Source: Actinomycetota bacterium (lineage in GTDB: Bacteria > Actinomycetota > Acidimicrobiia > Acidimicrobiales > Ilumatobacteraceae). From it: a stretch of 32,255 nucleotides of DNA. Below are positions 15,247 through 19,019 of the stretch, one piece after another. The stretch is from NCBI GenBank assembly GCA_009711295.1, contig WLST01000014.1, positions 1 to 32,255 on the forward strand, read 5' to 3'. Under the pieces are notes generated by a model, which saw only the letters and a program-made list of their open reading frames with translations, ran no database searches and was not told where the DNA came from. The position numbers and the translations under genes were made by a program. The first letter of the stretch is position 1. The number at the start of each line of letters is the position of its first letter.

Positions 15247-16226
15247 TACATCACCAGTGCGAGTTCACCGTTGCTCGGATGCAAACTGTGTGCAAGAACA
15301 CTGGTGCTATAGGTTCCGTGTGTAGTGAGGTTGTCGCCAATTTCCACAATTTGGGCAACTCTGCGGCTTCCTTGTGGGCATCGTTCAACAAAGACAACGA
15401 TGTCAATTGCTGAGGAAATATATGAACGCACGGCTGAGAGCGGCCAGTTCGGTGTTGCTTGTAACACCATGCTTTCAATACGGTGCAATGCGTCGTGAGC
15501 GCTGTTTGCGTGGCAGGTAGACATTGAACCTGCATGACCCGTATTCATTGCTTGCAGCATGTCGAAAGCTTCGGGGCCGCGTACCTCACCGACGATGAGG
15601 CGATCGGGCCGTAAGCGCAAAGCGTGACGTACCAAATGCGAAAGTGATATTTCAGAAATACCTTCCGCCGAAGAAGGTCGTGATTCGAGATACACCACAT
15701 GAGGGTGAGTTACTGCAAGTTCATTCGTGTCTTCTAAAACAACAAGGCGTTCATTGGCCAGAGCTTCACCTGCAAGTGCGCTCAGCAGTGTTGTTTTACC
15801 GGTAGAAGTAGCACCAGCCACAACAATGTTGCGCCGTTGGTGCACAACGGAATGCAAAAGGTCAGCAACGCGGCCACCAGCAAATGAGGAAATGCCAAGG
15901 GCACGAGAAGAAAACCGACGAATGGTGAGACATAGCCCATATGGGCTGACAGGGGGAATAGCGGCACAGAGTCGTGACCCGTCACTGAGGCGAGCATCGA
16001 CAACCGGAGAAGAAAGGTCGATACGTCGGCCAATGGGAGCAAGTAAACGCTCAAGAAGTGCCGCTGCCTCACCTGGGGCGAGTGAGCCCGCTCGTTCTAG
16101 ACCTGAGGTACGTTCGGCCCACACCTCGGTGTTGTTATTGACAATGATCTCTTTGACGTCGGGGTCATTGACAAGGTCTTGTAAACCAGCAAAGTGGGGC
16201 TGTCCAAAATGGGTGCGCTGTTGCAT
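15246..16226 (-). CDS. tadA: TadA/CpaF-type pilus assembly ATPase
   Basis: This 326-residue secretion ATPase of the VirB11/CpaF type would power pilus extension or retraction from the cytoplasmic face of the membrane. The N-terminal domain (about 1-120) includes IIVNNNTEVWAER and the SRLCAAIPPVSPYGLCLTIRRF segment. The P-loop GATSTGKTT is at 138-146. An acidic strand VVLEDTNEL and the Walker B region RLIVGEVRGPEAFDMLQAMNTGH are followed by the His-box-like STCHANSAHDAL. It is shorter than many CpaF proteins, lacking an N-terminal extension. Both gene junctions are TAATG, so translation is probably coupled from tadZ to the platform protein. Confidence 0.95.
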   Translation of the reverse strand: MQQRTHFGQPHFAGLQDLVNDPDVKEIIVNNNTEVWAERTSGLERAGSLAPGEAAALLERLLAPIGRRIDLSSPVVDARLSDGSRLCAAIPPVSPYGLCLTIRRFSSRALGISSFAGGRVADLLHSVVHQRRNIVVAGATSTGKTTLLSALAGEALANERLVVLEDTNELAVTHPHVVYLESRPSSAEGISEISLSHLVRHALRLRPDRLIVGEVRGPEAFDMLQAMNTGHAGSMSTCHANSAHDALHRIESMVLQATPNWPLSAVRSYISSAIDIVVFVERCPQGSRRVAQIVEIGDNLTTHGTYSTSVLAHSLHPSNGELALVM

Positions 16227-16870
16227 TAGAGAAATGGCTTTTTCGGAATGGGGATTGACAGCACTTCAACCAATGCACGCAAGCCTTCATTGAGTGCGGC
16301 CGGAATACGGCTACTCAAGAGACCAGCGTCAACCGCACGCGAAACACTGGGGTCAACTTTGATGGTGGAAACAATGGGAGTTTTCAACACCGTGGAAATA
16401 TCGGTTGGAGTGAGAGCCCTGCCAGCCTCTTCGAGCACAATGATGCCGTCGCTACGCAAGTACCCATGGCTCATTTTGTTACTTGCCTTGCGCAGCGCCA
16501 AGTAGCACGGACGCAGCACGAGAAATGTGCGATTGGCAATGCGCTCGAAGCTCTCATTGAGTTCACCTGTTCCTACGTCAATGACCACCGGCGCGTCGTA
16601 TGCAAGAAGTTGGTTGGCAACTTCTTTCCAGTTGTGTTCAACGGGAGTGCGTAACTCACGTGGTGCAAAGGAAAGTAATTTGAGTGAAGCATTGACATCG
16701 ACGGGTTTCGTATCGGGTGGGTCGGGAATGCCGAGTGCCGGAGCAAGTTCGCCGGCAAGGTCAACGATGTATCCACCGCCTCGGTGTTGGGCAGCGAGCA
16801 TCATTGCGAGTGCGGCACTGGTAATGGTGGTTCCACTGCCACCTTTGGGGGATCTACACACCACAATCAT
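16226..16870 (-). CDS. Minimal TadZ/CpaE-like ATPase-fold protein
   Basis: This 214-residue ParA/MinD-fold protein sits first in the Tad operon, where it probably localises the pilus machine (as CpaE/TadZ, and Ssd in Mycobacterium). The P-loop reads SPKGGSGTTITSAALA: the leading lysine typical of the MinD/ParA deviant Walker A is present but the GK-T/S lysine is a threonine, as is common in CpaE-type proteins. APVVIDVGTGEL is the Walker B-like strand. There is no N-terminal receiver-like domain, unlike CpaE. The ATG at 16870 is preceded by AAAGGAG six to seven bases upstream, which is much better than an in-frame TTG 48 bases earlier. Its stop overlaps the tadA start. Confidence 0.85.
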   Translation of the reverse strand: MIVVCRSPKGGSGTTITSAALAMMLAAQHRGGGYIVDLAGELAPALGIPDPPDTKPVDVNASLKLLSFAPRELRTPVEHNWKEVANQLLAYDAPVVIDVGTGELNESFERIANRTFLVLRPCYLALRKASNKMSHGYLRSDGIIVLEEAGRALTPTDISTVLKTPIVSTIKVDPSVSRAVDAGLLSSRIPAALNEGLRALVEVLSIPIPKKPFL

Positions 16871-16985
16871 GGGTGCTCCTTTCACATGTCTTGGCCTCGA
16901 AATGGTGAGGTACTTCAATGTGTGATTTCAGGCGCACTTCGTGGCAACTACTTTTCAGAAAGTCTCATTCAGTTGTAATACCCGA

Positions 16986-16991
16986 TACTCT
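16986..16991 (+). promoter_or_regulatory. Putative -10 element of the tRNA-Sec/membrane-protein unit (TACTCT)
   Basis: TACTCT is followed by six bases and then an ATG at 16998, which is itself two bases before the mature 5' end of tRNA-Sec. The spacing to the tRNA (eight bases) is close to that at tRNA-Thr (nine bases), so this promoter fits both a tRNA gene and a leaderless message. Confidence 0.5.
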
Positions 16992-16997
16992 TTTCTC

Positions 16998-18074
16998 ATG
17001 GAGGTGTCTGTGCGCCTGGTGGGCTCCGCCGCCTTCAAAGCGGTTGAGACGAGTGAACCTCGTCTGGCGGGTTCGATTCCCGTCCACCTCCGCCACTCGT
17101 GGAAGTTATTCCTGCTTGCGCTCTTGGGGTTCTGGTTGTTGAGCCCGACAAGCAGCGCGCATGCCGACCCTGCACAACCGGGGAATACGCGCAGTGTTGT
17201 TACCGAAATATCGCCAACGACAAGTGCAATTGAAGTTTCCATTGTTGGCGTTGACGCTTTTGTAAAAATGAAAGTACAGCTAGGGCATAGTGCTGAAGTC
17301 ATTGGTTACGACGAAGAGCCTTATTTACGTATTGATGAAAAGGGCCGCGTGTTTGAAAACTCATGGTCTCCTACCACGGTCATTAATCAGACTCGATATG
17401 GAACAGGCAGCACTATTCCCACGAATTATGTGAGTACCGATGCGCCAACCTGGCGACAAATAGCAAGCAATGGCGAGGCAATATGGCACGACCATCGCGT
17501 GCATTGGATGAGCCCGTTAAAGCCAGCAGTTGTGAACGACGACGGGTTAGTGCAAGATTGGCAAATCGACATGACAGTTGATGGCGCAGTCACTGCAGTA
17601 CTAGGGAATTTATATGTGGAAGATGCGCCAGGCTCATGGTGGTGGCTACTTGTTATTCCTGCTGGGGCCAGTGTGTTCTTGATGAAAAAGCGATTGCATC
17701 ACGTTGCTCTTGCAGGAGTGAGCGCTGCATTGGTGGTTCTCGGAGTTGTGCAGTATTTCTCACTGCCAAGCCCTGCCCGCGATACTCCGTCGCTCATTGC
17801 ACTCGGAGGTGTTGCGTTATTGCTCGTGTTGGTAGCAATAACAGTGCGCAGCGAAGAATTTGTTGCAGCATTCTCTACTGCAGCGGGTGTTGCAATTGTT
17901 GTTGCTATCGCTTTGCACCGCAACCAGATGAATCATCGCTTTGTACCAGGCATGGGTGATGCGTGGTCTGTACGAGTCATTCTTCCTATTGCCCTGGGTT
18001 GTGCATCAATTGCAATTTGGCATGGGCTCAATGCATTGTTGCGTGTACCGCAACCTTTGGCAGATGAAAGCTAA
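16998..18074 (+). CDS. Conserved exported/membrane protein, 5' end encoded across tRNA-Sec
   Basis: The open frame gives 358 residues from the ATG at 16998. About 32 N-terminal residues are encoded by the tRNA-Sec sequence. After them comes a good signal peptide (RHSWKLFLLALLGFWLLSP, cleavage after AHA before DPAQ). An extracytoplasmic domain of about 150 residues follows, with GYDEEPYLRI, NQTRYG and HDHRVHWM motifs. About six hydrophobic segments follow from about residue 210 to 350. I recognise the general type, an uncharacterised actinobacterial membrane protein, but not a function. No ATG or GTG lies in frame between the tRNA and the signal peptide. The candidates are TTG at 17124 or CTG at 17112, which would clip the signal peptide. 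The gene is convergent with the sigma-factor gene, six bases apart. Confidence 0.75.
   Translation: MEVSVRLVGSAAFKAVETSEPRLAGSIPVHLRHSWKLFLLALLGFWLLSPTSSAHADPAQPGNTRSVVTEISPTTSAIEVSIVGVDAFVKMKVQLGHSAEVIGYDEEPYLRIDEKGRVFENSWSPTTVINQTRYGTGSTIPTNYVSTDAPTWRQIASNGEAIWHDHRVHWMSPLKPAVVNDDGLVQDWQIDMTVDGAVTAVLGNLYVEDAPGSWWWLLVIPAGASVFLMKKRLHHVALAGVSAALVVLGVVQYFSLPSPARDTPSLIALGGVALLLVLVAITVRSEEFVAAFSTAAGVAIVVAIALHRNQMNHRFVPGMGDAWSVRVILPIALGCASIAIWHGLNALLRVPQPLADES
17000..17095 (+). tRNA. selC: tRNA-Sec (anticodon UCA), CCA encoded
   Basis: The gene has an acceptor GGAGGTG pairing with CACCTCC, discriminator G and an encoded CCA at 17093-17095. The anticodon arm GCCGC-CTTCAAA-GCGGT gives anticodon UCA, which reads UGA. 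A long variable arm AGACGAG/CTCGTCT forms seven pairs. The T-arm is GGCGGG-TTCGATT-CCCGTC. Acceptor plus T-stem make 13 stacked pairs, the bacterial tRNA-Sec value, and the 96-base length matches selC. The D-arm pairing is imperfect by eye. A class II tRNA with UCA anticodon, G73 and these proportions is not tRNA-Ser or tRNA-Leu. It implies that selA, selB, selD and at least one UGA-containing gene lie elsewhere. Confidence 0.95.
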
Positions 18075-18080
18075 GGAAGC

Positions 18081-19019
18081 TTAAACAGCAAGTAGGTCGC
18101 GTGCGCCGGTGTCGCTTGACGGGTGGCGCAACTTGCTCATGGCACGAGCTTCAATTTGGCGAATGCGCTCACGTGTGAGGTTGAAGTGGTCGCCCACTTC
18201 TTCCAACGTGCGTGGTTCGCCACGGTCGAGACCAAAGCGCAATTTCAAGATTTCGCGTTCGCGCTCGTCGAGCGGAGCAAGGAGTCGCTGAATTTCTTCT
18301 GGCAACAATGCAGTGGCAGCAACTTCAAAGGGCGACTCTGCGGAGCGGTCTTCCACCACGTCGCCAAGTTCAGCATCGCCATCTTCACGCAATGGCTCAG
18401 ACAGCGAAAGAGGTTCAGCAGCAAAGCGCAATGCCTCGGTCACTTTGTCTTCTGGCATTTCCACTTCTTTAGAAAGTTCAGCCAAAGTTGCAGGGCGACC
18501 ATATTTCAATTCGAGTCGTGAGCGAGCCTTTTGCAAACGTGCAAGGGTGTCGCCAGCGTGAACTGGAAGGCGAATGGTGCGCCCAGTGTTGGCAATACCG
18601 CGAGTGATGGCCTGACGGATCCACCATGTTGCGTACGTAGAGAATTTAAAACCTTTGCGCCAGTCGAATTTTTCCACGGCGTGCATGAGGCCGAGGTTGC
18701 CCTCTTGAATGAGGTCGAGGAGTGGCAAGCCAGATGCTTGGTACTTCTTGGCAATAGACACCACGAGACGCAGGTTGGATTGCACAAAGGCGCGCTCGGC
18801 GGTTTCGCCTTCTTTAGCGGCGCGCTTTAATTCGCGCTTCTTAGTAGGCGAGAGAGTTTTTTCTGTTTCGGCAAGTTCAACTTGCGCTTCTTTGCCAGCT
18901 TCGATGGCTTTGGCTAAACGAACTTCGTCGTCTTTCGTGAGCAGGGCATATTGGCCAATGTCGGTGAGGTATAGCCGAACAAGGTCTTCCTCATCGCGGT
19001 CGACACGGTCCTTAGCCAT
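18081..19019 (-). CDS. Sigma-70 family RNA polymerase sigma factor (RpoD/SigB-like)
   Basis: This 312-residue sigma factor starts with region 1.2 (DLVRLYLTDIGQYALLTKDDEVRLAKAIE). Region 2 has NLRLVVSIAKKYQASGLPLLDLIQEGNLGL and the -10-reading segment RKGFKFSTYATWWIRQAI. Region 3 follows (IRLPVHAGDTLARLQKARSRLE). Region 4 ends with the helix-turn-helix RTLEEVGDHFNLTRERIRQIEARAMSKLRHP. It lacks a long region 1.1, so it is more likely a group 2 (SigB/HrdD-like) factor than the main SigA, but in a small genome it could be the principal one. GGGAG a few bases before the ATG at 19019 is a good ribosome binding site. It would read promoters with a TAnnnT -10 of the kind found across this window. Confidence 0.95.
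   Translation of the reverse strand: MAKDRVDRDEEDLVRLYLTDIGQYALLTKDDEVRLAKAIEAGKEAQVELAETEKTLSPTKKRELKRAAKEGETAERAFVQSNLRLVVSIAKKYQASGLPLLDLIQEGNLGLMHAVEKFDWRKGFKFSTYATWWIRQAITRGIANTGRTIRLPVHAGDTLARLQKARSRLELKYGRPATLAELSKEVEMPEDKVTEALRFAAEPLSLSEPLREDGDAELGDVVEDRSAESPFEVAATALLPEEIQRLLAPLDEREREILKLRFGLDRGEPRTLEEVGDHFNLTRERIRQIEARAMSKLRHPSSDTGARDLLAV

Follow-up and report, generated by a model that had tools for sequence, protein, structure and literature searches.

Can a bacterial tRNA gene also provide the beginning of a protein? The question is raised by a window of 32,255 nucleotides (the whole stretch of DNA that was analysed) from a member of the Ilumatobacteraceae, in which the gene for selenocysteine tRNA (selC) runs in frame into the gene of a membrane protein. 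From comparison with related genomes we consider it quite likely that this gene contains selC, in frame, as its 5' part and that translation starts at or inside the tRNA.

Layout of the selC locus

The features of the locus, with their positions in the window, are as follows.

16226-16918, minus strand: divergent TadZ/CpaE-like ATPase gene, bounding the promoter region (weak NCBIfam TIGR03815 match, below cut-off)
16986-16991, plus strand: -10-like hexamer TACTCT, presumed to drive both selC and the membrane-protein frame
16998-17000, plus strand: ATG, candidate leaderless start codon whose G is also the first tRNA base
16998-18074, plus strand: fused reading frame of 358 codons, membrane protein
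17000-17006, plus strand: GGAGGTG, 5' acceptor strand of the tRNA, Shine-Dalgarno-like, pairing with CACCTCC in the predicted fold
17000-17095, plus strand: selC, tRNA-Sec with UCA anticodon and encoded CCA (ARAGORN, Rfam RF01852)
17010-17012, plus strand: in-frame GTG, candidate start codon, 5 nt after GGAGG (17000-17004)
18081-19019, minus strand: convergent sigma-70 family (RpoD/SigB-like) gene

The tRNA-Sec at 17000-17095 was called by ARAGORN on the plus strand with anticodon tca and scored 65.8 bits against RF01852, for which the cut-off is 47. As a preliminary description of this DNA had stated, the ATG at 16998 overlaps the first base of the tRNA and its frame stays open into the membrane protein, and the TACTCT hexamer was found where it had been placed, at 16986-16991, six bases ahead of this ATG. 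From stop to stop the open frame runs from 16926 to 18074, that is 72 nt further upstream, and includes a GTG at 16941 which lies upstream of both the ATG and the -10 box. Three in-frame GTGs (17004, 17010, 17019) lie within the tRNA-Sec.

The fused frame translates as MEVSVRLVGSAAFKAVETSEPRLAGSIPVHLRH, followed by the signal-peptide-like SWKLFLLALLGFWLLSPTSSAHA and then the remainder of the membrane protein. Codons 1-33 form the tRNA-encoded N terminus, after which come a signal-peptide-like core (codons ~37-56), a beta-rich region (~64-207) and membrane-type helices. The protein gave no Pfam and no NCBIfam match, and its relatives gave sub-threshold Pfam matches only, in 2/3. A sequence search of the PDB returned one non-significant match, and a fold search with the AlphaFold2 model, a weak one (mean pLDDT 60.6, residues 1-35 below 50), returned none at E 0.001. 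In the clade that includes the window (clade A, below) the protein is under purifying selection, with pN/pS of 0.20.

Conservation in the genus

Thirteen genomes of the genus were sampled, of which 12 are assembled through the locus (L001-L012). In each of these 12 readable genomes selC lies immediately 5' of the protein, with an ATG at -2 and a shared open frame of 358-362 codons. If the start is the equivalent of ATG 16998, the entire tRNA-Sec thus lies within the protein frame on the sense strand in 12/12; with a start at GTG 17010 the first 10 tRNA bases would fall outside the coding part. The ATG at -2 is found in 13/13. Loss of the locus in the thirteenth genome, G009, was considered and ruled out: its contig ends within the tRNA, with promoter and ATG identical, and a different contig carries the truncated sigma gene; an assembly gap accounts for the seeming absence.

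Two clades were distinguished, clade A (L001-L008) and clade B (L009-L012). With the tRNA part excluded, identity to the window protein is 76-83% in the other seven members of clade A and 43-45% in clade B, and the linker after the tRNA differs between the clades by four whole codons (11 of the 12 genomes compared). In each of the 12 genomes (completeness 76-96%) selC is the single match at E 1e-9, and selB is above cut-off in the same 12; in G000 it sits on a different contig. The hosts are apparently lake-dwelling bacteria with small genomes.

The protein search gave matches in 34/61 genomes, and none of the 18 loci fetched from outside the genus had selC in the fetched stretch. Ten loci from a further search, whose contigs equal in length some that this one had already given, were left out of the counts. 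Among the loci seen, the fusion of selC and protein appears to be specific to the genus.

Relatives without selC at the site and probable origin of the arrangement

In relatives the sigma-70 family gene stands in synteny with both selC and the membrane-protein gene. Two g2 genomes (G013, G353) keep the order TadZ-like gene, protein, sigma gene; no selC was found in either and no selB over cut-off in G013, and the start of the protein, which has a stop codon close before it, is a GTG that follows AGAGGTG. Eight g25 loci have the protein beside the sigma gene and show no tRNA in the sequence fetched; an ATG or GTG start follows TACCGT, TACGGT or TAACAT at N6-N7 in 7/8 (by eye, read in all but L133). 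Of these ten selC-less orthologues, the nine whose start was read by eye begin directly at the signal peptide; the tRNA-encoded segment is therefore a genus-specific N-terminal addition and not a conserved part of the protein. In G036, selC lies ~38 kb from the protein, beside selB. It seems that an ordinary, probably leaderless signal-peptide gene became fused to selC in the genus. The preliminary description had named relatives with a clear downstream start and no selC as evidence that would count against a start in the tRNA. Formally the ten loci are of this kind, but they give the genes of the genus no other start codon.

At the protein start of one g2 locus (L013, 2471-2458, minus strand), and at the same place in L130, stands AGAGGTGTGATGTG, which resembles the 5' end of selC. 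To read this as a remnant of selC in both g2 genomes is attractive, but it is inseparable from an ordinary Shine-Dalgarno sequence.

The comparison set consisted of 67 selC loci from outside the genus: Rfam searches supplied 51, and 16 were chosen for an ATG at -2. In at least 21 of the 51, selC lies near the same sigma gene (L041, L045, L046, L050, L051, L054, L056-L063, L066, L067, L069-L071, L074, L085), and in 7 of these 21 the TadZ-like gene is there too; the count is a lower bound, the loci reaching at most ~1.5 kb each way and some being shorter. The synteny of selC and sigma gene would thus be old in the order. That the protein might be linked to selenium use was considered and is unsupported, since the g25 and g2 copies adjoin the sigma gene without selC there and selC stands near the sigma gene without the protein in these same loci. 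The arrangement probably arose through adjacency to the sigma gene and loss of spacing, not through a role of the protein in selenium use.

The ATG at -2 and the spacing of the promoter box

A search of 221 family genomes for the tRNA pattern with ATG at -2 found it in 12/13 genomes of the genus (G009 being cut), 14/29 g3 genomes and 2/24 g22 genomes. In the 16 g3 and g22 loci (L098-L113) the frame is 17-100 codons long, the contig end truncating it in three, and the membrane protein is absent behind selC in all 16; in the four g3 genomes searched for an orthologue there was none. We therefore discarded the ATG as proof of coding: g3 has it without the gene, so it is necessary for a leaderless reading and is not evidence for one. 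Its recurrence in g3 and g22 may stem from RNase P preferring such a leader, or simply from inheritance. Among the 51 loci not selected for it, ATG stands at -2 in two (L054, L069). Over all 67 loci the frame from -2 measures 17-473 codons (below 75 in 47/67; six cut by the locus end) and exceeds 150 codons behind an NTG at -2 in two, L069 (ATG, 189 codons) and L058 (CTG, 346 codons, to the locus end). In L069 (family f56) the stretch 1499-2068 holds selC together with the ATG at -2 and its frame of 189 codons across the tRNA.

The preliminary description had allowed that the hexamer could be just the tRNA promoter. TANNNT near selC is common: the box stands N7 ahead of the tRNA in 48/67 loci outside the genus, the commonest layout seen in the order (by eye, N7 holds for every one of the 16 selected for ATG, which leaves 32/51 among the others). 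As proof of a leaderless gene the hexamer was accordingly dropped. Only the shift seen in the genus is informative. There the box lies N8 from the first tRNA base in 8/8 clade A loci and N11 in 4/4 clade B loci, so that box to ATG is N6 in 8/8 of clade A and in G009 (by eye) and N9 in 4/4 of clade B; in g3 a box 7 from the tRNA leaves the ATG at N5 (by eye). The shift to N8 or N11 would put the AUG in the transcript if transcription starts 6-9 bases past the box.

In the window, TANNNT precedes the first ATG or GTG of 28 long ORFs at N6 in five, N7 in two and N8 in one, and at any other distance from 0 to 30 in at most one each; the count excludes ATG 16998, the first start of the membrane-protein frame being GTG 16941. 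Of the leaderless layout that had been proposed, the N6 spacing is borne out by this peak (5/28) and by clade A; the N9 of clade B departs from it. No TA dinucleotide occurs from the ATG to the tRNA end in 12/12 genomes of the genus, so that a TANNNT box inside selC is impossible. A generic sigma-70 scan of 16850-17400 on both strands gave no promoter-like site and also missed the presumed selC promoter. One weak terminator-like hairpin was seen at 17089-17103, against 0.6 expected from shuffles.

Predicted RNA fold and the GTG at 17010

In the predicted fold of the 5' RNA, GGAGGUG pairs with CACCUCC, which we take to be also the tail of 16S rRNA. In the AUG the AU is unpaired and the G paired; GTG 17010 is partly paired in the best structure and free in the centroid. 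The D arm does not fold as in the cloverleaf, and the energy is unremarkable (z-score -0.74). With the Shine-Dalgarno strand paired in this model, ribosomes would seem to need to load early, before the 3' strand is made.

The preliminary description had proposed a start at ATG 16998. With the codon bias taken at face value, a start at or in the tRNA is supported in at least five genomes (below), but GTG 17010 had been overlooked as an alternative. In that alternative, which we hold to be possible though on balance rather unlikely, ribosomes would use the acceptor strand as Shine-Dalgarno sequence and the GTG would be kept as start codon at the cost of a mismatch in the tRNA. The arrangement GGAGG, 5 nt, GTG is present in both clades. 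The T of the GTG makes a T.T mismatch at D-stem pair 12 (window positions 17011 and 17025) in 13/13 genomes of the genus, whereas this pair is canonical in 67/67 other loci of the order; a non-standard pair at nearby pair 14 occurs in 2/67. GTG at the same tRNA site was seen in 2/67 loci outside the genus, both with a T-A pair, and the exact GTG pattern is rare, with 2/298 genomes of the order (G000 and, T-A paired, G159). The GTG start of both g2 genomes after AGAGGTG and the free GTG of the centroid also favour this alternative; the pairing of the Shine-Dalgarno strand in the full-length fold stands against it.

So does G017, whose tRNA is as in L009 but for the pairing base: here the GTG is in a T-A pair, and selC is followed by a convergent ORF, DNA glycosylase-like by eye, and not by the membrane protein, with a neighbouring sigma protein 98% identical to that of the window over the part seen. 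Since G017 has the GTG without the protein, the GTG either arose independently of the protein or was later compensated. We therefore downgraded the D-stem mismatch as proof of selection for the GTG; as a sign of its use the mismatch is suggestive, and on the tree it probably represents one event, not 13. Promoter spacing favours the leaderless ATG 16998, with GTG 17010 as a serious alternative.

Start codons and codon bias behind the tRNA

A codon listing of the window confirmed that past the tRNA and before the hydrophobic core only two candidates remain, CTG 17112 (codon 39) and TTG 17124 (codon 43); these are the only NTG codons among codons 34-46. The same shortage is seen in five genomes of clade A (L001, L002, L006, L007, L008), in which codon 33 consists of the CA of the tRNA and one further base and codon 34 is TCG. 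None of the five has an NTG after the tRNA before codon 39; the first is CTG at codon 39 in L001 and L002 and GTG at codon 43 in L006-L008. The claim that there is no good start after the tRNA thus stands for five genomes and not for six others of the 12, which have ATG or GTG there: L003-L005 have ATG at codon 34, directly behind the tRNA, L009 has ATG at codon 41, L012 has GTG-ATG at 35-36 and L010 has GTG at 39. In L011 there is just TTG or CTG, from codon 42. A start codon after the tRNA would be workable in 6/12 genomes at best, and a separate one, as in a tRNA-mRNA operon, was not found for the genus as a whole.

Of the changes inferred over codons 34-41, those at third positions made up 7/11 in the five start-less genomes (p=0.039) and 12/19 in clade A (p=0.007); over codons 34-43 they made up 8/15 (p=0.088) and 15/27 (p=0.014), respectively. 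The clade B linker showed no significant excess (8/19, p=0.28). For codons 34-41 the pN/pS ratio came to 0.19 in clade A as a whole, to 0.17 in its five start-less genomes and to 0.62 in clade B. These figures suggest that in clade A a modest third-position bias extends to the 3' end of the tRNA. With five of 12 genomes lacking a later start, this bias, and no TANNNT box in the tRNA, initiation at or inside the tRNA is the most likely reading. Against it count clade B, where N9 is off the leaderless peak, the linker bias is absent and pN/pS is 0.62, and the 6/12 genomes that could start later (L003-L005, L009 and L012 at ATG, L010 at GTG). Further points against it are the g3 genomes that have the ATG but no such gene, the selC-less relatives with their start at the signal peptide, the GTG of G017, and the pairing of the Shine-Dalgarno strand and of the G of the AUG in the predicted fold.

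The same evidence bears on another explanation, which we regard as improbable, namely that tRNA processing releases the mRNA as its 3' product and the protein starts past the tRNA, effectively leaderless, at ATG, GTG, TTG, CTG or ATT. L003-L005 would leave A-AUG straight after CCA, the linker offers ATG in L009 and L012 and GTG in L010, the selC-less relatives begin at the signal peptide, and codon 43 is TTG or GTG in every clade A genome except L003 and L004. However, no start codon after the tRNA is common to the genus. L006-L008 have nothing before ATT and GTG at codons 42-43, which leaves ~13 signal residues with no positive N-region, and in the five start-less genomes the changes upstream of codon 43 lean to third positions, though not significantly over codons 34-43 (p=0.088).

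Chance adjacency of selC and an unexpressed or decaying gene in the same frame is very improbable: two of the three frames are open across the tRNA-Sec of the window and small genomes tend toward short spacers, but the downstream protein is under purifying selection and the frame is intact in 12/12 genomes across a deep divergence and despite an in-frame change of length.

Proposed mechanism

For a start at or inside the tRNA we propose the following. The membrane-protein gene would have been left without a promoter of its own and, in some genomes of the genus, also without its own start codon, and a single promoter before selC would give one RNA. Ribosomes would start either at ATG 16998 on a leaderless or nearly leaderless mRNA, to which we give rather more than half of the weight within this explanation, or at GTG 17010 with the GGAGG acceptor strand as Shine-Dalgarno sequence, to which we give about a third. 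The translated tRNA sequence would serve as the long N-region of a cleavable signal peptide; as the tRNA-encoded residues would be removed with the signal peptide, the mature protein would be unchanged. RNA that folds as tRNA would be trimmed at both ends, with the AU of the AUG lost, the Shine-Dalgarno sequence buried and the coding part cut off, so that the protein could no longer be made from that RNA. Each copy of the RNA is thus probably forced into a tRNA or an mRNA fate. What the sequences themselves establish is the overlap, the open frame and its conservation, the single selC copy found, the lack of a usable later start in five genomes and the lack of a TANNNT box in the tRNA. The transcription start, the initiation codons, the cleavage of the signal peptide and the competition of processing with translation are what we infer.

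A further, tentative and rather doubtful idea is that the RNA acts as a switch, its 5' end serving either as first codon of a leaderless mRNA or as RNase P substrate for the only tRNA-Sec found in these genomes. A ribosome, if it initiates first, would destroy a tRNA-Sec, and RNase P, if it cuts first, would destroy an mRNA; the level of the envelope protein would then report the state of the ribosomes or the maturation of tRNA-Sec.

Comparison with known systems

In the E. coli tRNA-tufB co-transcript a separate start codon and ribosome site for the protein lie downstream of the tRNA. The present locus would resemble it in having one promoter followed by tRNA and then protein gene, and is unlike it in that 5/12 genomes have no start codon after the tRNA. 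If our reading is correct, such a locus is a test bed for the competition of co-transcriptional tRNA folding, RNase P and ribosome loading on one 5' end, and annotation pipelines that mask tRNA genes would trim the protein to a false start.

Leaderless mRNAs of Actinobacteria (e.g. Cortes 2013, PMC3898074) offer a second comparison: with a -10 box ~6-7 bases ahead of the start codon, transcription would begin with the A of that codon or close to it, and the TANNNT box at N6 in clade A is placed in this way. The present case differs in that the presumed beginning of the mRNA coincides with the 5' end of a tRNA, and in the N9 of clade B.

A third comparison is the selC of Alphaproteobacteria that lies in the 3' end of selB, claimed as the first tRNA nested in a bacterial ORF; in a symbiont lineage the last base of tRNA-Sec is at -2 relative to the start codon of selA, which the tRNA thus abuts but does not contain (Mukai 2021, PMC8124441). 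The two overlaps agree in that a whole selC lies in sense orientation in a protein frame, the frame is kept across species and some relatives have no overlap, and there too tRNA processing and protein expression are proposed as mutually exclusive, as a model. They differ in that selC overlaps the 3' part of selB and lengthens that protein at its C terminus (PMC8124441), whereas here the host is not selB but an unrelated membrane protein of signal-peptide type, of which the tRNA occupies the 5' end. Unlike the selC in selB (PMC8124441), selC here would bring a start codon and a promoter, and the N-terminal extension is one that signal peptidase would remove; this suggests that a signal peptide could permit translation of a tRNA without harm to the mature protein. 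Among the open-licence papers listed, judged by title and the beginning of the abstract, we found none that describes a bacterial protein gene with a tRNA at its 5' end. If true, the present arrangement, conserved across the sampled genus, is the mirror image of the overlap of selB and selC, in that a protein receives its start codon and its N terminus from a bacterial tRNA gene.
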